DNA of 64,000 nucleotides from Sorghum bicolor (taxonomy: Eukaryota; Streptophyta; Magnoliopsida; Poales; Poaceae). The first letter of the stretch is position 1. Every line of letters begins with the position of its first letter. The stretch lies in the NCBI RefSeq assembly GCF_000003195.3, contig NC_012878.2, positions 40,526,599 through 40,590,598 of the forward strand, written 5' to 3'. A model generated the notes under the pieces. The model saw only the letters and a list, made by a program, of their open reading frames with translations, was not told the DNA's origin and made no database searches. The translations under genes were made by a program, and so were the position numbers. This document shows, in pieces, positions 48,220-63,881 of this stretch.

Positions 48220-51200
48220 TGTAACATCCCTGATGTTACGAATACTAAAAACGGATCATGTCATCATAAGCATTGCCAAGCATATTTGTTAAGCACATTG
48301 TTATGCATCAACTTAAAACAAGTTTATTTTGATTGCTTGTGTTTAGGGAAGTAGAGTGTGCTCATGTTGTGTGTTGATGCTTGCTAAAACCCTAGGGTGG
48401 AAGATTTCCGAAAGCTAAGGGGGGGAACACTGATTTCTGGAGCCTAGAATTTCCCCTTTTTGTGCAATTCAAAAACTAATCAAAATTTGGGATGAGTTCA
48501 AAAGCAAAGTTGTAGATCTTGTCAAGGTGTACAACTTTGGTGTTTTGAGTTTTTGAAGTTTCAATACAAAATTCAAAGTAATTTTGAAAATACAGATTTC
48601 CAGAAAGTGTCCCCTTTTCCAACTTAAACCCCCAAATCAAAATCCATTTGGAATTTTAAAAAGTGGTCAACATGAAAGTTGTAGAGCACAAAAAGTTGAG
48701 CAACTTTCATGTTGGGAGTTTTTCAAGTTGTTATGCAAAATCAAAAGTAATTTTGGAAATCCTGTTTTGTCCCCAATTCAAAAATTTGAATTTCTTTGAA
48801 TTGAGTTCAATTTCAAAACTGTTTGGCCAAATTAGCTATTTTCTACTCAGAATCAGCCCTGGCCACCAAAAGATGATTTGTAGTTTACAAAATTTGGCAC
48901 AACTTTTATTTTGGTGGCAATTTGGCTTTAGTTCAAACTTTGGCCGAATTTCGCAAGGGGACAAAAGCGGGAAGATAGGGGTTGCTACAGTGATCCGATG
49001 GGGATCACCGGCCCCTGTCCAGCGCATCCGCCGCGCGAGCTGCGCCGCGCGCATGCGTGCAAGCACACAGCTGCTTGCTGCCAGAGCCGCCAGGCGACGT
49101 GGACGCCCTGAGCTCGCTCCTCCCTCCACTTGAGCACCGACGTGGACGACGCCGTCCGTTTTCGCTGTCCACGGCCGAAGAAACCCGACATCCCCCTCTC
49201 TGAAATCCACCGTACTCAGTTCCTTTCGAGCCAAATTGAGTACTCTGCCGTATTCGCCACCTCCTTGCGGACCCAAAGCACCCCCGAGCTCACTCCCTAA
49301 CCCCCTCAAACGCCAGAGCTTCTCCTTCTTCTCTAAGTCCGGCCGGCGTCGCCGCCGTGGAACCCTTCACGTGGGCACGTTGCTCCAATCGGTACCACGC
49401 CTTACAGCGATCGTTTCGAACTCCTCTTGTTTCCCCGATGCTCATGCGCTCGCTTCTTCTTCCTGGACGTGAGCAGGACCCCCGGAACGACTTCGCCGGA
49501 GCCGGAGCATCCGCCCGACCGCACGGCCACCGTCGCCAAGCTTCGCTACTGCTTCTCCCGCCGTGGTGATGTGAGCACCATGATCCCCACTTCTTCTCGG
49601 ACCTCCCGGACCTACTGGTTCACGCTCTACCGAACCCTCGTGCCCGGTCCTCGGCGACCGACGCGGCCGTCCGCCATTTGTGTGGTTGAGGTGGAAAGAG
49701 AGCGGGAGAGCGTCCGTGAGTGGTAGCTTTGGAGTCGCAGGGTTGACGCGGTGCTGGTGCGCACGCGCGCGGGGGCCGAGGAACTCGCTAACGGTCGCCG
49801 GAGCGGCGGTAGCACCGCCGTGAACGAGGGAGGCGAAACTGACGGGCGGGACCCGCCTGTCAGCTTCCGCAGAGAGAGGGGAAGGGAGAGCCTGACGAGT
49901 GAGTCCCGCTCGTCAGTGTCCACATGAGGGGAGGGGCAGCACGCGCAGTGCGTGCGCGGGCCGAGCGCGCATGGGCCGGCCTGCGGGCCAAGATCCAGGC
50001 CGCCCACTGCGCAAAGATCTTTTTCTTTTTTCTTTTTATGCAATTTTTGTTTGATGTTTGAAATTATGTGATAAATTGTGTGCTAATCCAAAAATGATGA
50101 AAGTTTTTGTATAGGTTCCATAAAGTGGGTAGAACACAAGAAAAATAGTGGATTCTGTTTTCTGGTAGTTTACATGTCTGTAAAAATTTGCTCTTTTAAT
50201 TAGTGAATAAAACTTCTAGGAATTTTAATAATTTATTTGTATGTCCAAAAATCACCAAAAATTGTGGGGAGCCTCTGACTATTATTCCCTGGCTCCACAC
50301 AAAATTTGGTGGCATTTGGATAATGTTTGATTAAAATATTAATAAATCCTTATTTAGTACTTAAATAATAATTCCAAAATAATTAGATAGTGATTAGTGA
50401 AATCCTCATAATTAGGGTTGAGTGATTTTGGGGATTGTGTGATGACCTGAGGTCATTAACCCTAATGACCTTTGGCATTTAATTATTGTTTAGCCTTAAT
50501 GCTTAATTACTGTCATTAGCAGTTGATTAAGAATTAATTAAGGTAAATAGGATTAATAATTAGTTAATTCAGGTTAATTATGAATTAAAAGAGATTTTAT
50601 TTTACAGATGCAACCTCTTGGGTAAAAACATTAAGATGTTAAACAACTTTATTTAGTGATAATTCTGTATTGCATCAAGAAGGCGAGTTGTACTCGATTT
50701 GGTCCTTCTTGCATATTTGTCATACGCATATCATGAGCATTCATCATTTTGCGTATAGTGTCCGTGACCGAAGGAGCGCCCGTTGAACCGAACCCCGAGG
50801 TCGGTGCTCCGTTCGAGGAAGTCGGATCCGAGACTTGGGAAGTCTCCGAGGGTCCCTCTCTGCCCTGCAACCAAGGCAAGCCCCGGATGCATTAACCCCT
50901 CCTTGAATGTTTTAAATCTTTTATCTCTTATGAATTGAAAATGCTGCATTAGGCAGTTGAGAATTGGGTTAACCTACTTGCTGCATTTACTACCTTGTTA
51001 CCTGTTATCCTTGACACCTGTTTTATTTTAAAACAGCGTAGCGATGCTTAGCCCTGCTACTAGATAGGTTTTCAAACAAGAAAGTTTGAAGGGTTGTTGT
51101 GGGATACACTTATGATCAATGATGTTTCAATTTGAGACCGGTCGGTGGACTTGCTTTAAGAATGGAGTCTTAAAGTAGTGTCTCCGACTGTGTTGATTAA

Positions 51201-52483
51201 GGACCGTTCTGTTGATGGCCTGCTGGGTTGAGAATTTGTAGTACTAGCCACTTGCCCTCGGTAAGCCCGGTCTTGTGATCCCTCGACGCGAACAGCTACT
51301 CGCGCACTGGGAGTGGAAAGATTGCGAGAGTAACGTGTGCCCACCTTACGGATCTGAGATGACCGGAAAACATCTAGATCGGCTGTAGGATGGTGGAGTA
51401 CTGTGCTCTCGGGTGCCGCGAACCTGGTCAAATTTGGGGAGAGCTTGATTTGGGTTGATATATGCAAGATTTGGTTCTACATATGTCGGGTGGTTAGGAA
51501 CTCCAGCTGGATTGCTAAGCGATTCGAATCGTCGTTGCTCCCCGATTGGGAGACTCAATTCCTTCGACCCTCATCGTAGTTAAATATGCAATTAATTGGT
51601 AAAATGAGAAAGGAAGAAATGTCTCATGAGGTTCGGATCCTAATTCCCGGACTCATAGCGACATGAAGCTATGGCCATCGATAAACAATACTTTAGGATA
51701 GGACTAGGAACTCACGGATTCGTCTGTGGGGAACAACTAGTTAGACTGTCCTCGAACTCCTCGACCTCTGTGAGGGAGGAATTCGCGGGTAAAACTTGAA
51801 AATAAGGATGCACTATTAGTAAGCTTTTTAAGCAAAACACTTTGGCTCCTTGCTTAGCCACCCCTTGTCTACCCTAAGCCTGCATCCCTAAGTTCTCCTC
51901 TTTTTCTCATCGGGTAAGTCTTGTTGAGTACTCCCGTACTCAGGGTTTCAATACCCCTGTTGCAGGTGAAGCACAGGAGCCGACTTGTTTCGGACCCTGT
52001 TGTGTGACCGTCGTCGAGGTTGACGACGAAGAAGAGTGAGCGTGACCCATGGGCAGGGTCTGTAAATTTGTACTGTCTGTACTAAAGTTTCAGTTGCTCC
52101 GCTGGACCAGGCTTGTAATAACACTCTACTATTTGGAAGAACTCCTTTTGTAAATTAAGTTATGTAATACTTCCGCTGTTTCACTCTGAAATATTATTTT
52201 GGTCTTGTGTCGTTGAGTTACTGCTTTATCCTCGCAACGAATGATCCTGGTGTTAAGGTGGCCACTTGCTATCCTGTAAGGGCGAGAAGAAGCAGTTCTC
52301 GTTGTTTGACCATTACCAGTGGTCAGGACGAGCCAGCTTGGTACGCCACAGGTAGCAGTGGAATGAGCGTCCAGCGATGCTCATCGGACTTCTAAAGTGG
52401 GAGGACTCCCGGCATCACCGTCAGAGGTCCTTAGGACAATGGCAGGTGCCGGTGGGCCCAAACACTTAGGGGGTTCTGCCACA
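48220..52483 (+). repeat. Tekay-type 5' LTR (4264 bp)
   Basis: TGTAACATCCC...GGTTCTGCCACA, ending two bases before the PBS. It contains paragraphs typical of such LTRs (repeated CAACATGAAAGTTGTAGAGC-like words near 48500-48720) and a GC-rich part (49000-50000) with open frames I do not recognise. A short acidic coding-like segment ends in GGCAAGCCCCGG (50759-50895). The solo LTR at 36852-41990 is a relative. Confidence 0.88.
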
Positions 52484-52485
52484 GC

Positions 52486-52497
52486 TGGTATCAGAGC
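52486..52497 (+). other. Tekay PBS (tRNA-Met type)
   Basis: TGGTATCAGAGC two bases after the LTR is the standard initiator tRNA-Met primer site of many plant LTR retrotransposons. The leader 52498-52856 that follows has no ORF of note and ends in CCCTCTACAG/G, which looks like a splice acceptor. Confidence 0.95.
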
Positions 52498-52856
52498 ATT
52501 CGTTGCTAAGATGACTGCTGTACCTATTGAAAAACTTCAAAAGTTCGTTTGGATCTAATACTATGAACCTGCCTATTTTGAGTCCAAGTGCTTAGTCCTA
52601 ACCTACCCCTGTCTATAGGCTTTCTTAGAATTTTTGAAGCGGTATGGAGGAGCAACATAAAGTATTGCCCTATGTTGTAAAAATTTAAAGTAATATCGTT
52701 ACGAATTGTTAGTGGGAATCGTAAGTTCGTGCATGCATCATGATGTATTAACTGGTTAAGTTCCTTCCTCCTTGTTTGGGTTGGGTGAATAGAATCAATC
52801 CGATTCTTGCTAACCTTTAAGGTCTCTCTTACTAATCTAAACTTACCCTCTACAGG

Positions 52857-53561
52857 ATGGCTCGTCAGAAGCAGACCCCGCGTAAGCAGACCGGTCCAAA
52901 AGGAGTTCCCCGACATCAGCTAGCTCCACGCAGCGATCAAGCCAGCAGTAGCCGTTCACCGCCTCAGCAGGAGGTGGACAGGTTGTCCGCCGAGTTGACT
53001 GAGGTGATGAGAGAGAGAATGTACAATGTTATGGAGATTGGCAAACTTAAAGCTCAACTGGCCAAAGAAAAACAAGCTACAGAGAACTGTGAGGCTATGT
53101 TGTCCCGGATGGTGGAGGAGCGGAATGCAGCCATTGCCCAAGAGGAAGAAGCTAGGAGCACACACAGGCATGAGCTGACTAGGATGAACGCAAAGTTGGG
53201 CAAGGCCAGGTATCTTAAGGATTTGTACGTGAAGATGGCGGCCACGGTCACCGCACAGCGGGATGTCGCGTGGCAACGAGAGGACCAGCTCCAGCTGGAG
53301 AAACTGGAGCTGGCACATCACTTAGATACTGTCAATGACCTGGCTATGCAATATCGTGATATTGCATTTGATCTGTATCATCAGCTCCATCCACCTTCTG
53401 GCGAAGGGGAAATGGATACGGATGGCGAGTTGGCAGACGATGGGGAACCCGATCCAGGCCTCAGTGATGAAGAGGAGTCCGACCCCGATGACAACAACCC
53501 AGGGGGTAATCAGGATGATGGCAATGACGACCCGGGCTACAGCTCTGGCCACACCGATTAG
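52857..53561 (+). CDS. Extra ORF before gag: histone H3-tail-like N-terminus, coiled coil, acidic tail (234 aa)
   Basis: The ATG at 52857 opens a complete ORF. Residues 2-23 follow the H3 tail: ARxKQTxRKxTGxK, then, after one extra residue, PRxQLA. Positions equal to H3 R2, K4, Q5, T6, R8, K9, T11, G12 and K14 are kept. T3 and S10 are replaced by Gln and A7 by Pro. There is no histone fold. Residues about 40-175 are heptad-like, rich in Glu, Ala, Leu, Lys and Arg. Residues about 178-234 are strongly acidic (Asp/Glu/Gly/Pro). It lies between PBS and gag, where ordinary Tekay elements have no gene that I know of. A chromatin role is inference. Confidence 0.85.
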   Translation: MARQKQTPRKQTGPKGVPRHQLAPRSDQASSSRSPPQQEVDRLSAELTEVMRERMYNVMEIGKLKAQLAKEKQATENCEAMLSRMVEERNAAIAQEEEARSTHRHELTRMNAKLGKARYLKDLYVKMAATVTAQRDVAWQREDQLQLEKLELAHHLDTVNDLAMQYRDIAFDLYHQLHPPSGEGEMDTDGELADDGEPDPGLSDEEESDPDDNNPGGNQDDGNDDPGYSSGHTD

Positions 53562-53774
53562 TTCGGTGAAACCGAGGGCAACGTCGTTGTAGGGGTCCTA
53601 GCTAGCCGTAGTGGGGTTCGGGTTTGTAATATAAGTTCTCTTTTGGTTTGAGAAGTTGTACCTATTTACTCTTGGTGTGTCGAACTAATGTTTAATAAGT
53701 GAATGGAAGAATGTAAGATATGTTCTGTGTTATAAATTTCACGTGGTAACAGGTATCTACGACTCTTGTAACAG
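53562..53774 (+). other. Spacer between the H3-like ORF and gag
   Basis: No gene. It ends TTGTAACAG directly before the gag ATG (53775), a possible splice acceptor. With the acceptor-like CTACAG at 52855 this would allow separate mRNAs for the two ORFs; inference only. Confidence 0.4.
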
Positions 53775-55878
53775 ATGCCGATGCGTACTCGCGGATCTGA
53801 TGGAGCTGGGATATCTCAGGGAGGGGATGATATCCCCAACCCTCCACCTGCTCCACCTTCTTTGGCTGACGCCATTGCTGTTCTGCTAAGTGCCACAACT
53901 GACAACGCTCGCTTGCTGCGCGAGCTAGCACAGCGTCAACCACACCTCGCCCCAAACTTCAGGGCACCGCGCAACGGGGACGGAGAGACTCGGTATGTGG
54001 ATTTTACCGAGACCAGGCCCCCGGTGTTCACTAAGGCCGATGAGCCTTTAGAAGCGGATGACTGGCTCCGAACCATGGAGCATAAGTTCAGTTTTATTCA
54101 GTGTTCAGAAACTCAGAAGCCCTTGTTTGCAGCCCAGCAGCTTCGGGGAGCTGCAGGTGCCTGGTGGGAGAACTTCTTAGCTATCCAAGCTCCAGGACAC
54201 CAGGTTACCTGGACCGAGTTTAAGGACGCGTTCCGCGCCCACTACATCCCCGAAGGGCTCATGGCCATGAAGGCCGAAGAGTTTCTCGCCTTGCAGCAAG
54301 GCGATAAAAGTGTTATGGAGTATGTGGCAAGGTTTAATCATCTCTCTCAATATGCCACGGATCATGTGAACACTGACAGAAAGAAGAAAGCCTGTTTCAT
54401 GCATGGTCTAAATACTAAACTTCAGACCATGATGACTACTTGCCAGAATGTTACCTTCTATGAGGCGGTAAGTATTGCCATCGCCTCTGAGGAAAAGAAT
54501 AGAAAACACAAGGAAGCCAAGAAGAAGGTTGCTTCCTCCTCTTTCTCTGGTCGCGGTCAAAAGCGCCAGAGGATCATTTATCATCCACAGGGCCACGGAC
54601 GTTTCCAAGCGCCGTCACCTTATCGTGGTCCTTTCTCCCCTCCACAGTACAGTCCCGGGCAGCAGGTATACTCTCGACCTACTGCCATCGCTCTTGCACC
54701 ACGTCAGCCGAACACCCCAGGTGTTCGCCCCACTGCTCCGCCCAGCCACAATTACCCTTGCTTCAATTGCGGTAAGCCTGGGAATTTCTCTAAAGAGTGC
54801 CCTTTTCCCCGCCAAACCAACCCTACCTTCCAAAGGCCACCTATGGGCCAAGCCCAGCCGAGTCAGTTCAGGACTGGGGCTCAGAAAGGGCAACAGATAC
54901 AGAAAGGTAGACCAGTAAAGAAGACGGGGCAGGTCTTCCATACGGAAGTGGAGATGATTCCAGAGGGTGAACCAGTGATGATGGGTACGTTTCCTGTTGC
55001 GAAACATCCTGCTTTAATGCTCTTCGATTCTGGTGCATCTCATACATTCATCAATCACACCTTTGTGTTAAAGCATGGCATACCCATTGGGGAAACACAA
55101 GATCATTTTTATATACAGTCGCCAGGAGGACGGCTGATGTCCAAAGAAATGGTTCACCAAGTACCCATCGAATTTGGTGGGCATAATTTTCCTACTAGCA
55201 TGATTGTTCTTAAGGACCAAGAGATTGATGTCATCTTAGGCATGAACTGGATGGCAGAACGAGGGGTTGTGTTGGACACTTTGCATCGAACCATTAAAAT
55301 CCCATTGCCCAATGAGAATTCTTATTTGCTAATTCAATTAGTTACTCCCAAGCGGACAATTGGGCAAGTTCATGCCGCTAATGTGTCTGAAGTTAAAGAT
55401 ATCCCGGCAGTTCGAGATTTCCCGGATGTATTTCCTGAAGACTTACCAGGTCTGCCTCCGGACCGGGATGTACAATTCAGTATAGAACTGAAGCCAGGGA
55501 CGGCCCCAATATCTCGAAGGGCCTACAGAATGGCACCGAAAGAGCTGGCCGAATTAAAAACCCAATTACAAGAGTTGTTGCAGAAAGGTTTTATTCAGCC
55601 CAGTTCTTCTCCATGGGGTTGCCCAGCCTTGTTTGTGAAAAAGAAAGATCAAACATTAAGGCTGTGTGTCGACTATCGTCCCCTAAATGAGGTAACGATT
55701 AAGAACAAGTACCCACTGCCCCGCATTGACTTATTGTTTGACCAGCTAGCTGGGGCCAAAGTATTCTCAAAAATTGATTTGAGATCAGGGTACCACCAAA
55801 TTAAAATTAGGCCGGAAGATGTGCCCAAGACAGCTTTTACAATCCGTTACGGGCTATATGAATACTTGGTGATGTCCT
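53775..55878 (+). pseudogene. Tekay gag-protease-RT, 3' end cut by element B
   Basis: The single frame has no stop. It has a gag capsid region at residues about 75-235 ([38 protein letters not shown]), a basic segment and a zinc knuckle [14 protein letters not shown] with Asn where His is expected (54783-54785). The protease has [11 protein letters not shown] near 55021. RT has [10 protein letters not shown] near 55661 and [15 protein letters not shown] near 55768, up to EYLVMS. The sequence then runs into the LTR of element B, so YIDD, RNase H and integrase are missing from the window. The pol start is fused to gag-pro, as is usual in this lineage. Confidence 0.92.
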
Positions 55879-56565
55879 TGTTGATGCAAAACTGATCTGC
55901 AAACACAAAGGGCTAATACCCGATTCAAACGTTAAGGCGTGCCAGCTGATTTGACCTTACTATCGGCAAAGGTGATAACTCGAATACTTTAGTCCTGACA
56001 ACAGCGATGCGCCCGGATGTCACGGCTAAGAGGTACTCACGCGGAACTCGAGAACACGCCGAGCTTAAGTCGACGAATTCCTAAGAACTCATAATAAAAG
56101 GAAAAAAATATGACGAAGTCGTCGAAAAGTAGATGCTGGAATATGAGTAAAAACGTATGTTTGATTGACTGATTGATTCTTCTTACAAGGCCCTAGGGTC
56201 TATATTTATACCCTGCTCAAAGAGCTACAACCAGACACGATTAGAATTCGAATTCCAAATTACACGGAATCCGTATACAAAACGATGCAAATAATTAAGG
56301 AAATAACAAAACTATCCCTCGTAACAAACCGAAACTCCTCCACATAACGACCGGCAGCTTCCAGACTCCTCCTTTGCATCATCGGCAGATCCTTTGCCAT
56401 AGTCATCGGCAGACTTTCTTATCTAGCCATCGGCACCATATTACTGCCTGTCACATTCAACTTCTCCCTCATCGGCAACCATCCTCATCGGCAACCCGCT
56501 TTGTAAACATCGTACTGCCACCTTATCCTGCCATCCTAGACACGTGCCCAAAAACGGTGTCAACA
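55879..56565 (-). repeat. Element B 3' LTR
   Basis: TGTTGATGCAAAACTG...GGTGTCAACA on the plus strand, 687 bp, homologous to 33512-34238. CATGCCCCCCAGTTTC (56566-56581) is the reverse complement of its PPT. Confidence 0.92.
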
Positions 56566-57205: not shown

Positions 57206-60200
57206 ATGGCCATTGGCTTCGTCGTCCCTGAGGTCAGATCTCCATCTCATCTTCTGTATTTTTATTCCTGTTCATCCGCGATTCATCTTACTAAATATTC
57301 TCCTTTTCCCTTTTCTTTGTATTTTTATTCCCCAAAATCACTAGGAGTTGTCCAATAAAATTGTCATCCCCACCGATCAACCACACCTTCAATGTCTCGG
57401 CCCTCTAGGGGATTCAGATCCAACCAACCTTATCAACGCAGAAACCAATAGGATCCCCTTTAGAGCTGAAAACTTTTCTTTAGATCTGTGGAAAGACACT
57501 TTTCGCTCTTGGCCCAGCCCTACCATAGGGTGGAAAGACTGGTTCTTGAGGGCCAGCAATTCTTATGAAGTCCAGTGGGGCGAAAGGAAGCTAGCCCAAT
57601 GCATTAGGCTATCCATTGCCGATATGCACAGGAACGAGTCACTGCTGATAGCTGCGTCCTACTTTTGGTCAGACACTCTCAATGCTTTTGTTTTTGGCCA
57701 CGGCCCTGCTTCTCCTACCCTTGCCGATGTAGCCATGCTCACTGGTCTAGATATATCTTCTGCCGATAGCACCCACTTTTTTGATACTGCCCCCAGTGCC
57801 AAAGTGGAGACTCGCGCTATCGGCGGTTGGTCAGGGTATATTCAGAAGTACCGCAGGAGAGGGCCTGTCACCATAAAGGAGCAAACCACCTTTCTGAACA
57901 TGTGGCTGGACAAGTTTGTATTCTGTGGTCGATCGGCAGGACCGACTTCCGTCTATCTATCGGCAGCAGAGAGACTGGCTAACGGTGGCCAATTTCCTCT
58001 CGGCCGATACTTGCTTGGCGCTGTTTACCACCTTCTCCATCAGGTAGCCCAGAAACTCCTGCTTGGCTAATCCATCGGCAACTTGGGAGGCCCCTGGTGG
58101 TTTATTAATATGTGGCTCAATCTGCAACTGCATAAGCGCCTTGATTTCAACTTGTTCTCACAGCACTTCCCAAGAGATATAGCCGAAAATCATGTGTTGG
58201 GTGAAGAGGAATCGGCAACGCGTGCCCCCTTGAACTTTGGCGAAGCCGTCATAGTCCTACCTGGTTCAGGGAGTAATCCGGATCAGATCGGCCGATTCTT
58301 CGAGACTCTGTATGAGGGTTTGGCCAGAGATGAACGACCATGGTTGGCTTATGATGACCCAGATAGCATGCTCCCTCTGACCTTCAATCCATTTGATGAA
58401 GCTCTCGACAGGGACAATGAGGCGATGATGGCAATTGTGACTCCCAGAGCCATTCCAGTGAATTTCTTCGGTAGCACAAAAACTTCTCCCCAGACTTATG
58501 AATTTTATAATCCATCGGCATTTGCTCGCCAGTTAGCTTTCGGCCAGTTGCCAATCGCACTTCCTTATGCCGATGTGATAAAACCCAGAGAAACTATCAA
58601 TAACTTTCTTGAGTGGAGTCTAGTAGCCCAACTACCACCAAACGCCGATACAGATGTAGATCTATCAGAATGGGTTCCGGCTGCTTTTATCACTCAGGCA
58701 TACAAGTTATGGTGGGCAGAATGGAAAGAGCATCTATTCTGCAGATCGGCCCTTTCATACCGCGGCATGATCGACTCCGAATACGAAATTCCCGATGACA
58801 CTGTAAGTATCTCCAACCGATGTTTCATTTTTTCAACATTATTTCCATCAGTAGCTTACCCTTGTATTCCTTTTGCAGGTTGATAACATCCCCTCATCGG
58901 TTAGCAGGAGTGGCAAGCCGATCGACTTGTTTCCATCAGGCCCGATTTCCTCAATCGGCCACAATGCTCCCACTCTGGCTTCCATCGTGCATCGGGGTGT
59001 GCGCCTCAGGAAAGTTACGACCAGGAGAACCCAGACATCACCAACGGTAGCTGCTCCCACTCTGGCGCGGGCTTTCAAGGCAATTTGTCAAATCTTTATC
59101 TTTTACGCTGACTATCTTTATATCGGCTTTATTTATACTTATAAACCCTTGTTCGTTATTGCAGCAAACCAGTGCATCGGCAAAGGTCACACGTCAAGGT
59201 GCCGATGCCACCCAGTCCAGCCAGCCAAAGAGGAAGGGTGTCAAGAGCACCAGGGCCGAAACGAAACGCCAAAAGGTGGCAACTCCCCCTCTTCCTCCGG
59301 TATCTCCAATCCCAGTGGAGTCTTCTCCTTCTTCTCCAGAAGCCCAGACACAGCAAGCGCCATCTCCCCAACCAATGCAGGAAGCACCACAGATGGAAGA
59401 ATCCCAGCAGGAAGAGCCTCAAACAGAAGGTACATCAGTCGATGTGGGTGAACAAACAACTGGTCCGGTGGGTCCAATTATATCATCGGCGGTTCTCCCG
59501 ATTCAGACAACCGTTGTTCCCCTTCCAGGTAACATACTTTAACAATACCGTTGCCGATGAACTTATTCTCATTTAGTCTCATAACCTTTCTTGTCTCCTT
59601 TTAGTCGATATCGTCCCATCGGCAACCTTAGCCGATCAACCTGTAGTTCCATCGGCATCTTTGGCCGGTCAGCCCGCAGCTCCGTCAGCACCTCCCAGTC
59701 CAAGGCAAGAGATCGCCTTGAAGCAAGTAAGTCACTGTTTACCGCCAGTATTATTTGCCGATTCTCTAAGTATGAGCTAATTTTGCTTTCCCTCCCAGGA
59801 ACAAGATTCTCCCGATAGCCTGTTCTCCTTCGCCATCGATTTCTCTGAAGAAGAAGGTGAAGAAGCAAGCACTTCTCAGTCGGTCGGCATCACATCGGCA
59901 GAGGTCAGGGTCAGGCTGGAAGAATTTTCAACTCTCCTTCACCAGGACACAGCGCAATTGGTTGATGATTCTGACCCTACCAAGACCCTGTTCAGAACTC
60001 TCAGAGGCCAAGTCCCAGCCGATGTTGAAGAAATCCTGTTCCAAGCCGCTCATCTGGAGAGTCGCCAACTGCAGTACCAAAGAGCTTCTCGGCGGCTTGC
60101 CGATAGAGCCGCTCAGACTCAGCTCTCCGATGAAATGAGGAAAGAGAAGCTTTTGACCGATGAGAAGCACAAGAACATCGGCATCCTGAGATCTTCTGGA

Positions 60201-60647: not shown

Positions 60648-63600
60648 CTATGCATCGACCCATATACTGGGGTAGTACTTCTTTAAATATTTGCCGTTTA
60701 ATGCTCTGGGAAATTCAATCCCTTCGAGGGTTTCTAGAATGTAGGCATTACCAGGATCCGATCGACTTATCCGATAAGGACCCTCCCAATTAGGAGACCA
60801 CTTTCCAAACTTCGAACTTTTGGTCCCAATTGGTAAAATTAATTTCCATACCAAATCCCCATCGGCAAACTCTTTAGCCTTCACTTTCTTATCATACCAT
60901 CTAGCAACTCTCTTCTTATTTTCTTCTATACTCATTAAAGCTTTTAACCGATGCCCTGCTAGATCGTCCAATTCATCGGTCATCAAAGTGGCATAACCAT
61001 CGGAAGTTAATTGATCTTGAAAAGATAATCGCCTAGATCCAGCCTTAATTTCCCAAGGCAACACTGCATCATGTCCATACACCAATTGATAGGGTGATAC
61101 CTTGGTTGATCCATGACAAGCCATCCGATAAGACCACAATGCTTCATTTAATAATGTATGCCACCGCTTAGGATTTTCTTCAATTTTTCGTTTAATAAGC
61201 TTGATAATTCCTTTGTTAGACGCTTCGGCCTGCCCATTGGCTTGAGCATAATAAGGAGAAGAATTCAGTACTTTAATTCCCATACCGATTGCGAATTCAT
61301 CGAACTCCCCCGATGTGAACATGGTGCCCTGATCGGTAGTAATTGTTTGGGGAATCCCAAATCGGTAAATAATATGCTCCTTCACAAAATCAATCATATT
61401 GGCCGATGTGACTTTCTTCAAAGGAATAGCTTCAACCCACTTAGTGAAATAGTCAGTGGCAACTAGAATGAACTTATGCCCTTTGCTAGATGGTGGATAA
61501 ATCTGGCCGATCAGATCGATGGCCCATCCCCGGAACGGCCAAGGCTTTATTATAGGGTTCATAGCCGATGCGGGTGCTCTCTGGATATTACCAAACTTCT
61601 GACAACCTTGACATCCCTTGAAATATTTAAAACAATCTTCAAGTATGGTTGGCCAAAAATATCCATTCCTTCGAATCATCCACTTCATCTTAAAAGCTGA
61701 CTGATGCGCTCCACACACTCCTTCATGGATTTCCCCCATCAAACTTCTAGCTTCATCATCACCCAAGCATCGGAGAAGAATTCCGTCGATAGTTCGATAA
61801 TACAATTCATTTTCAAGGAGCACATACTTGGTTGCTTGAAATCGAACCCGTCTTTCAACTTTTTTGGATGGATATTTTAGATAATCAATAATTTCTTTCC
61901 TCCAATCACCGGCACCGACTGCCGATGTCGCATTAATCATTGGCTGATATCCCGAGGCATGCTGAGCTAACCGATTAGCGTCTTCATTATGCAATCGGGG
62001 GACATGCTCCAATCGGAAATCCTTGAATTCCTTTAACAGTTGCATACTTCTCTCGAAATAAGTTATGAGAACTTCACTTCGGCATTCATAGCTTCCGGCC
62101 AATTGATTTATAACCAACATAGAATCCCCGAATATTTCAACAGCATCAGCACGAACTTCTCTTAACAGCTCCAATCCCTTGATCAGAGCTTGATACTCAG
62201 CCTGATTATTTGTTGATGTGGCAACAATCGACAAGGAGAACTCATACTTCCTCCCCTTAGGGGAAACTAATACAATGCCGATTCCTGCCCCCCGGTCACA
62301 GGTAGATCCATCAAAGAAGAGCGTCCAGGGTACAATTTCCAAGGTTTCCACTAGACCGCAATGCTGAGTCACAAAATCGGCCATAATCTGTCCTTTGACT
62401 GCCTTAGCCGATTCGTAACGCAAATCGAACTCCGACAGCGCTAAAATCCATTTACCGATCCTACCACTCATAATCGGCATAGATAGCATGTATCGGACCA
62501 CGTCATCTTTGCAAACAACAGTGCATTCGGCCGATAACAGGTAATGTCTCAGCTTGACACATGAAAAATATAAGCATAAGCATAATTTCTCAATGGCCGA
62601 ATACCTGGTTTCAGCATCAATCAACCTCCTACTCAAATAATAAATTACCCTTTCTTTCCCTTCAAATTCTTGAACTAAGGCTGAACCGATAACCGATCCA
62701 TCGGTAGATAAATACAATCTGAAGGGCTTCCCTTGTTGAGGTGAAACTAGAACTGGAGGACTTACTAGATACTTCTTGATTTCATCCAGAGCCAACTGCT
62801 GTTCTTCTCCCCAAATAAACTCTTGATCGGCTTTCAATTTAAGAAGAGGACTGAAAGCACGAATCCTACCAGACAAATTCGATATAAATCTCCTGATAAA
62901 ATTTACCTTGCCGATCAAGGATTGGAGCTCGATTTTGTTGGTAGGGGCCACTATTTTATTGATGGCATCAATAGATCTTCGACTAATTTCAATACCCCTC
63001 TGATGTACCATGAAACCAAGAAACTGCCCTGCCGATACACCAAATGCACACTTGTTGGGATTCATCTTCAATCCATCCTTCCTTGTGCACTCTAACACTT
63101 TTTGTAAATCGGCAAGATGCTTTGAGAAATCTCCAGACTTAACCACCACATCATCAATATAAATCTCTACGAGCTTGCCGATGAACTCATGAAATATAAA
63201 ATTCATAGCCCTTTGATAAGTAGCACCAGCATTCTTCAACCCAAAAGTCATGACTATCCATTCAAATAGCCCAACATGACCAGGACATCTGAATGCGGTT
63301 TTTGGAATATCCTCCTCCGCCATGAATATTTGATTATAACCTGCATTACCATCCATGAAGCTGATGACCCGATGACCAGCCGCAGCATCAACCAGTAGAT
63401 CGGCGACAAGCATTGGGTATCCATCCATCGGCGTAGCTTTATTGAGATTCCTGAAATCAATGCACACCCGAAGCTTCCCGTTCTTCTTGTAAACCGGAAC
63501 AACATTGGAAATCCATTCGGCATACCGACACTGCCGAATAAACTTAGCTTCAATAAGTTTAGTGATTTCGGCCTTAATATCAGGTAGAATGTTAGGATTA

Positions 63601-63881
63601 CATCGGCGGGCTGGTTGCTGATGTGGCCGAAATCCAGACTTGATGGGTAACCGATGTTCAACAATTGATCGGTCTAAACCAGGCATCTCTGTATAATCCC
63701 AAGCAAAGCAATCTTTATATTCCTTTAACAAACTAGTCAATTGTCGCTTACTCTCAGGATCTAATTTAGCACTGATAAAAGTAGGCCTAGGCTTATCACC
63801 ACTACCTATATCTACTTCTACCAAATCATCGGCCGATGTGAACCCCTGGCCTAATTTTCCATCATCGGCGAATCTATCCAT
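60648..63881 (-). CDS. Element B pol, uninterrupted: RT, dual RNase H, integrase (1077 aa)
   Basis: The ATG (63881-63879) overlaps the gag-pro stop as TAATG. In order: linker with CFAWDYTEMPGLD, RT with RVCIDFRNLN and catalytic YIDD (63162-63151), a first degenerate RNase H, and a second RNase H with FFDGST, NQAEYQAL and GDSMLVINQL. The integrase has the HH-CC zinc-binding start (HEGVCGAHQ...CQGCQ), Asp in WAIDLIG, TDQGTMF and Glu in GQAEASNKG. It ends with a small C-terminal barrel-like region (WYDKKVKAKEFADGDLVW). All expected catalytic residues are present and there is no stop or frameshift, so this protein could be active if expressed. No separate chromodomain is seen. Confidence 0.95.
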   Translation of the reverse strand: MDRFADDGKLGQGFTSADDLVEVDIGSGDKPRPTFISAKLDPESKRQLTSLLKEYKDCFAWDYTEMPGLDRSIVEHRLPIKSGFRPHQQPARRCNPNILPDIKAEITKLIEAKFIRQCRYAEWISNVVPVYKKNGKLRVCIDFRNLNKATPMDGYPMLVADLLVDAAAGHRVISFMDGNAGYNQIFMAEEDIPKTAFRCPGHVGLFEWIVMTFGLKNAGATYQRAMNFIFHEFIGKLVEIYIDDVVVKSGDFSKHLADLQKVLECTRKDGLKMNPNKCAFGVSAGQFLGFMVHQRGIEISRRSIDAINKIVAPTNKIELQSLIGKVNFIRRFISNLSGRIRAFSPLLKLKADQEFIWGEEQQLALDEIKKYLVSPPVLVSPQQGKPFRLYLSTDGSVIGSALVQEFEGKERVIYYLSRRLIDAETRYSAIEKLCLCLYFSCVKLRHYLLSAECTVVCKDDVVRYMLSMPIMSGRIGKWILALSEFDLRYESAKAVKGQIMADFVTQHCGLVETLEIVPWTLFFDGSTCDRGAGIGIVLVSPKGRKYEFSLSIVATSTNNQAEYQALIKGLELLREVRADAVEIFGDSMLVINQLAGSYECRSEVLITYFERSMQLLKEFKDFRLEHVPRLHNEDANRLAQHASGYQPMINATSAVGAGDWRKEIIDYLKYPSKKVERRVRFQATKYVLLENELYYRTIDGILLRCLGDDEARSLMGEIHEGVCGAHQSAFKMKWMIRRNGYFWPTILEDCFKYFKGCQGCQKFGNIQRAPASAMNPIIKPWPFRGWAIDLIGQIYPPSSKGHKFILVATDYFTKWVEAIPLKKVTSANMIDFVKEHIIYRFGIPQTITTDQGTMFTSGEFDEFAIGMGIKVLNSSPYYAQANGQAEASNKGIIKLIKRKIEENPKRWHTLLNEALWSYRMACHGSTKVSPYQLVYGHDAVLPWEIKAGSRRLSFQDQLTSDGYATLMTDELDDLAGHRLKALMSIEENKKRVARWYDKKVKAKEFADGDLVWKLILPIGTKSSKFGKWSPNWEGPYRISRSDPGNAYILETLEGIEFPRALNGKYLKKYYPSIWVDA

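Follow-up and report, generated by a model that had tools for sequence, protein, structure and literature searches.

A histone H3-like N-terminus on the ORF0 proteins of Tekay/Retrosat2-like retrotransposons in sorghum

Analysis of the window (the whole stretch of Sorghum bicolor DNA under study, 64,000 nucleotides) revealed a retrotransposon protein, ORF0, whose N-terminal tail resembles that of histone H3 beyond chance. We tentatively propose, as a possibility that we rate clearly below even, that, in one lineage of plant retrotransposons, the opening coding exon and splice acceptor of a host H3 gene were captured and have since encoded an H3 reduced to its tail, which would act as a multivalent decoy or adaptor, centred on Lys9, on the H3K9 methylation pathway that silences these elements.

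The H3-like tail and the element that carries it

The sequence-only reading had described an ORF ahead of gag with an H3-like start, and this was borne out: the ORF is there, its protein begins MARQKQTPRKQTGPKGVPRHQLAPR, 10 of the 14 residues after Met are those of H3, and the match resumes as PRxQLA past a single inserted residue. With gaps allowed, this tail scored 60 against H3 under BLOSUM62 (z = 8.8 against 20,000 shuffles with a mean of 17.5, an sd of 4.8, and a maximum of 50); of the window's 685 open stretches of 30 codons that begin with ATG, the best other one scored 24. Without gaps, the tails of families II, III, and IV matched H3 at 16–17 of 23 residues (z 12.7–13.7). That the tail is a chance or convergent basic N-terminus with no relation to H3 could be argued from the window protein by itself, as a phmmer search with the whole protein gave 51 distinct PDB sequences at E ≤ 1 and no single significant match: the top match was a helical chorismate-mutase chain (E 0.064), and the other 50 were all H3 itself, its peptides, or chimeras containing it, of which the best had E 0.22. 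The ungapped matches in the three other families and the recovery of family-II copies from the genome by a plain H3 query speak against this reading, to which we assign a negligible probability; the shuffle and window controls together with the H3 query led us to reject a chance match.

The relative P0100 matched a PDB chain named Cse4, whose start is the H3 tail, at E 0.0062, and among the best 60 of its 125 matches H3 was mixed with coiled-coil chains of PI3-kinase p85. ORF0 gave no Pfam histone match at E ≤ 1; its Pfam matches were weak, mostly of coiled-coil type, and all under the curated cut-offs. AlphaFold modelled the tail as unstructured at low confidence, followed by one high-confidence helix (residues 36–177) and an unstructured acidic end (residues 181–234), in agreement with the coiled coil and acidic tail read from the sequence. 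A decayed H3 gene was rejected as an identity for ORF0, which lacks a histone fold and continues after the tail as a single long helix.

ORF0 is best explained as an accessory protein of Tekay/Retrosat2-like chromoviruses, to judge from its sequence context: it lies on the same strand between the primer-binding site and gag, the place of the Tekay/Retrosat2 5' ORF0, and the element has a long LTR (over 3 kb; about 4.3 kb from sister-copy similarity). The primer-binding site, which we take to be of the initiator-tRNA type, lies 370–383 nt upstream of ORF0 in 6 of 8 family-I loci examined. The window element is interrupted at 55879, where the sister-copy match ends (the mechanical ORF continues to 55895), so the integrase and its chromodomain are seen only in sister copies. 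The integrase chromodomain usual for the Tekay lineage was located C-terminally in two sister copies, L039 of family I (Pfam Chromo score 26.1) and L099 of family IV (26.9; gathering score 25.1), and is absent from the cut window copy; at E ≤ 0.01, the family-II integrase stretch L041 did not match Chromo. Beyond the cut, plus-strand open frames of 240 and 266 aa and a minus-strand pol-like frame of 1077 aa occupy window positions 57348–58883 and 60648–63881, apparently within other elements.

Table 1. Features of the ORF0-bearing element, in window coordinates
Feature	Position	Strand	Basis
5' LTR	48220..52483	+	sequence shared with LTR-containing parts of sister copies L039, L040, and L101; the match begins at 48220 and in L040 extends to 52483
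Primer-binding site TGGTATCAGAGC	52486..52497	+	sequence
Conserved leader block ATCGTAAGTTCGTGCATGCATCATG	52718..52742	+	near-identical in families I and II; related form in IV
Putative leader intron GT...CTACAG	52721..52855	+	families I, II, and IV have donor- and acceptor-like sites in corresponding positions
ORF0, 234 aa	52857..53561	+	reading frame
H3-tail-like N-terminus, residues 1–25	52857..52931	+	H3 comparison, copies, families
Long helix / coiled coil, residues 36–177	52962..53387	+	AlphaFold, pLDDT mostly above 90
Acidic C-terminus, residues 181–234	53397..53558	+	sequence; no predicted structure, pLDDT block means 46–50
Acceptor-like TTGTAACAG directly before gag ATG	53766..53774	+	sequence; analogous site in family IV
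Gag-protease-RT frame	53775..55879	+	Pfam Retrotrans_gag, RVP_2, RVT_1

The leader block (consensus ATCGTAAGT(A/T)CGTGCATGCATCATG, about 132–161 nt ahead of the ORF0 ATG) is near-identical between families I and II although their flanks do not align. It contains a 5' splice-site-like GTAAGT at 52721; GTAAG was present in 26 of 30 copies, was replaced by ATAAG in L019, L028, and L030, and was missing at this place in L009. The layout was read in the window and in L015, L025, L029, L035, L099, and L100: an acceptor-like AG lies directly or, as in family I, one base 5' of the ORF0 ATG, so that the putative intron of the window copy ends one base ahead of ORF0, and in families I and IV such an AG also precedes the gag ATG. 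At the sequence level, the leader block and acceptor-like sites suggest a conserved leader intron and alternative splicing of ORF0 and gag. The leader block also holds a TGCATGCA palindrome, which might be a candidate RNA dimerisation or RY-type site.

ORF0 families, conserved residues, and selection

Profile and sequence searches for relatives of ORF0 returned 56, 524 (of which the best 120 were taken), and 40 proteins; no relative was confirmed in viral or prokaryotic contigs. In the genome (709 Mb searched), the best 150 of 1471 ORF0 candidates were scored, all with 96–100% identity and 142 of them without an internal stop. Family-II ORF0 (about 347 aa, e.g. L015) starts MARTRLTARKSTGGQAPRHQLA and matches H3 at 17 of 23 ungapped positions, family-IV ORF0 (155 aa; L071 and L072) starts MARTRLTARKSTGGRVPRHQLAPR with 16 of 23, and the database family III (P0188) has the tail MARTKRTARKSAGGRAPRHRLAPR. 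By this ungapped measure, the sorghum families II and IV are closer to H3 than family I, to which the window copy belongs. With few exceptions the tail stands at the exact N-terminus after Met; L065 and L066 keep the tail and lack the ATG, the database proteins P0043, P0101, and P0186 are predicted with an extension upstream of it, and many relatives outside the 63-sequence set described below are predicted to start further downstream. A GVPRHQLAP codon pattern occurred exactly 373 times in the genome (181 forward, 192 reverse), and the same pattern written backwards as a control occurred 0 times.

The 14 "families" compared are representatives picked by hand, and they form 12 clusters; at 60% body identity P0188 joins family II and P0101 joins family V. 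Their tail identities were 0.52–0.88 (median 0.74) and their body identities 0.02–0.50 (median 0.28), the tail being the more similar part in 91 of 91 pairs. Lysine was kept at H3 position 9 in all 14, at position 4 in 9 (Arg in the other 5), at 14 in 6, at 18 in 0, and at 23 in 2. Residue 18 is His in 14/14, unlike H3, and residue 23 is Arg in 11; lysines 4, 14, 18, and 23 are thus often replaced by Arg or His, with the basic charge mostly kept. Fisher tests of K9 against K4, K14, K18, and K23 gave 0.04, 0.002, 5e-8, and 6e-6, treating as independent families that are not. K9 is the sole lysine among the five tail lysine positions in the representatives of families II and IV, and the positions that drift across the 14 include 5, 7, 10, and 14. 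A larger set of 63 sequences, obtained by applying a pattern that requires a GVP-type core to the window protein and the first 161 proteins, kept K4 in 60, T6 in 61, R8 in 56, K9 in 62 (one Met), S10 in 44, T3 in 51, and K14 in 34; PRHQLA was about as constant as K9 here, partly because the pattern demands its start.

Among genome copies, K9 was found in 32/32 of family I and 21/21 of family II, with Arg at position 9 in 0/53. Loss of the motif from other copies, or relaxed selection on it, had been named beforehand as the mark of chance or decay, and family I showed neither: R2, K4, T6, and K9 are kept in 32/32 copies, which were picked by a loose pattern near residues 1, 8, and 17–21 that left those four free. 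Variation in the family-I tail is confined to positions 1, 3, 5, and 10 plus one R8C, and Pro replaces H3 A7 in 32/32. The earlier observation that T3 and S10 are both Gln survived in part: family I has lost both residues, but among the 32 copies examined Gln at position 10 is private to the window copy (R 29, K 2, Q 1), and the loss is not group-wide, as 10 of the 14 representatives retain T3 and 9 retain S10. Most family-II copies depart still more from H3, with Pro at Q19 in 18/21 and Arg at residue 18 in 9/21.

Selection was evaluated in 53 of 98 loci (32 of family I, 21 of family II), the others being duplicates, fragments, or other element parts, or lacking the start codon, length, or tail pattern. 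In family I (32 copies, 496 pairs), pN/pS was 0.084 for the tail (pS 0.35), 0.089 for the linker, 0.069 for the coil, and 0.190 for the acidic end, and the tail ratio was 0.085 at pS 0.52 in the 314 pairs with pS of at least 0.2. Between subfamilies Ia and Ib (L001 and L035), dN/dS was 0.055 in the tail, at dS 1.6, and 0.066 in the body. The family-I tail is under strong purifying selection. The family-II tail (21 copies) is not clearly so, with pN/pS of 0.59 from a pN of 0.034 and an unusually low pS of 0.058, and it shows no stronger constraint than the rest of the protein. The expectation that the tail would be more constrained than the coiled coil was not supported. When L001 was compared with the shortened family-II copy L009, dN was 0.31 for the tail and 0.77 for the body, at saturated dS and with an uncertain body alignment, and two other I–II pairs pointed in the same direction (0.43 and 0.36 in the tail vs 1.16 and 0.75 in the body). 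Family-II pS in codons 2–24 was about a quarter of that in the next segment (0.240), and codons 119–149 had a similarly low value (0.062), which may point to a constraint on the DNA or RNA sequence as such.

Origin in a host H3 exon

When residues 1–60 of H3 served as a genome query and 150 of 1170 candidates were scored, 63 matches resulted: eight were exact H3 genes, others were split H3 genes or fragments, and many covered only residues 1–26 to 1–40. At least four of the short matches lay at or just upstream of known ORF0 copies (C4:27028537, C4:23689541, C8:32136073, and C8:6907508); both family-IV places, L071 and L072, were absent from the matches among the 150 scored of 1170.

Four intron-split H3 loci, L106–L109, were read from these matches. 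Three of them, L106, L107, and L108, have a first coding exon that spans the ATG to the Lys23 codon, with GT immediately after it, and a second that begins Ala24-Ala-Arg-Lys-Ser-Ala-Pro-Thr-Thr, a sequence characteristic of H3.3-like genes; the start of L109 looks broken. The ATG of L108 directly follows an acceptor-like ...AATTAATGCAG, L107 has TTTTCAG 21 nt upstream of its ATG, and L106 has only a purine-rich ...GAGGAG within the 46 nt read. The H3 resemblance of ORF0 extends over 24 codons and no further, the same extent as the first coding exon of the split genes, and this shared extent together with the AG-ATG layout suggests exon capture. For 7 of 8 loci (the pattern missed L025), the codons of the ORF0 tail were set against those of seven H3 genes, four intronless and three intron-split. 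L071 of family IV shared 11 of 16 same-residue codons with L108 and 3–5 with the intronless genes, while five family-I and family-II loci shared 4–8 with the intron-split and 3–6 with the intronless genes, a result that favours an intron-split source but is only suggestive. A host H3 gene, perhaps of H3.3 type, is the probable source of the tip of ORF0, which would stem from its first coding exon; the layout is most simply explained if that exon was captured together with its splice acceptor.

Proposed function, alternatives, and known systems

Plant retrotransposons are silenced through H3K9 methylation, and to our knowledge few element-encoded antagonists of silencing have been found, VANC of VANDAL elements being one example. 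ORF0, with its flexible H3 tail, long coiled coil, and acidic end, could multimerise through the coil and so present several H3 tails at once. Host H3-tail enzymes and readers, above all those directed at Lys9, would take these tails as substrate or ligand; ORF0 would then compete for the H3K9 machinery or recruit it to the element's complex, and H3K9-dependent silencing of the element would be weakened or redirected. That ORF0 acts as a coiled-coil multimer showing H3 tails to host H3K9 writers and readers is, on sequence and structural models, a serious possibility that falls somewhat short of an even chance. In its favour are a tail that is H3-derived, stands at the N-terminus, and is conserved across families, and the distinct standing of K9 within that tail; the coiled-coil model allows multivalency, and the chromodomain in sister elements lends support. 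It is weakened by Pro in place of H3 A7 and, in most copies, Arg in place of S10 in family I, by the ratio of 0.59 in the family-II tail, by the p value of merely 0.04 for K9 against K4, by a PRHQLA about as constant as K9 and a non-H3 His18 in all representatives, and by L065 and L066, which keep the tail without an ATG. The interpretation in the sequence-only reading is partly supported, namely in the H3-like, family-wide N-terminus, its purifying selection in family I, the coiled coil with an acidic end, and the chromodomain of sister copies; modification like H3, binding by chromodomains, and titration of such readers would be candidate roles.

The best rival, which we consider rather unlikely, is that the tail serves as an H3-type nuclear import signal read by histone importins of the importin-4/Kap123 type, perhaps with the integration complex and with no mimicry of marks. 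The retained basic charge despite replacement of Lys by Arg or His at 4, 14, 18, and 23 fits such a signal, as do the high constancy of PRHQLA in the 63 sequences and the predicted nuclear location of grass 5' aORFs (PMC11728184). However, Arg never replaces K9, in 0/14 representatives and 0/53 family-I and family-II genome copies, an import signal requires neither a free Ala1 nor K9, and PRHQLA itself varies in family II, where Q19 is mostly Pro and H18 is Arg in 9/21. The tail might instead dock onto the element's own integrase chromodomain and tie ORF0 multimers to the integration complex, for which the Chromo matches in family-I and family-IV elements, both slightly over the gathering score, can be adduced; we judge this improbable, given that L041 of family II lacks such a match and that plant type II chromodomains are described as lacking part of the methyl-lysine cage (PMC6317226). 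Pro7 and Arg10 argue against a plain chromodomain ligand in family I, as Pro at H3 A7 is expected from chromodomain structures to disturb canonical binding. Slightly more improbable still is a transduction fossil, an H3 exon whose present role is limited to providing the start codon and a disordered, basic leader: the family-II tail ratio and the drift at positions 5, 7, 10, and 14 would suit it, but the tail is conserved across families despite diverged bodies and synonymous sites.

Family-II ORF0 (L015:751-1791, relatives P0162–P0183) shows a dsRBD-like fold between the H3 tail and the coiled coil. In the relative P0173 this is an additional alpha-beta-beta-beta-alpha fold over residues 40–117 (model with a mean pLDDT of 64), whose first Foldseek match, a hint only, was the plant DRB7.2:DRB4 complex (E 0.19, target TM 0.68). 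The modelled fold hints at a link to RNA silencing and is in line with the DRBM-like proposal for Tekay 5' aORFs (PMC11728184).

If the host-reader proposal is true, the H3-like tip may let ORF0 trick the host gene-silencing machinery, and a tail-only H3 mimic in abundant grass elements would offer a peptide-sized test of histone mimicry against silencing; the ORF0 tail would also be an unusually clean case of exon capture.

The sequence-only reading knew of no published description, which holds for the tail analysis and not for ORF0 itself. ORF0 of Retrosat2 and its homologs, including those of sorghum, was described with its function called unclear (PMC3485330), Tekay 5' aORFs were treated in PMC11728184, and between them these papers name an ORF0 or 5' aORF in Retrosat2, RIRE3, RIRE8, Sorsat2, ZMsat2, Sb7, and Tekay. 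The present ORF0 is like these in being an extra same-strand ORF between LTR and gag of long-LTR Tekay-clade grass elements with named sorghum members (PMC3485330, PMC11728184). It differs in that the available portions of both papers call ORF0 unknown, enzyme-like, or DRBM-like and contain no analysis of the tail, Lys9, or the exon. The word "histone" has 0 occurrences in the main texts of PMC3485330, PMC11728184, and the review PMC7264820. Among the literature titles and opening parts of abstracts that were screened, a retrotransposon H3-tail mimic was not found. In a 2011 abstract (Genetica 139:1543), Steinbauerova et al. reportedly noted that some extra ORFs of Poaceae chromoviruses are partially similar to the histone H3 gene, and the bare H3 resemblance is for this reason probably in print.

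Compared with sorghum H3 genes, ORF0 shares residues 1–23 and the AG-ATG and exon-end layout of the intron-containing L108, but its tail leads into a coiled coil and not into a histone fold. Histone mimics are known from influenza NS1, SARS-CoV-2 ORF8, and the ARKT site of G9a. ORF0 resembles these viral and host mimics in carrying a short H3-like stretch of ARK type on a non-histone protein; whereas the known mimics are short motifs, ORF0 carries the whole 24-residue N-terminus in place, and does so in a retrotransposon.
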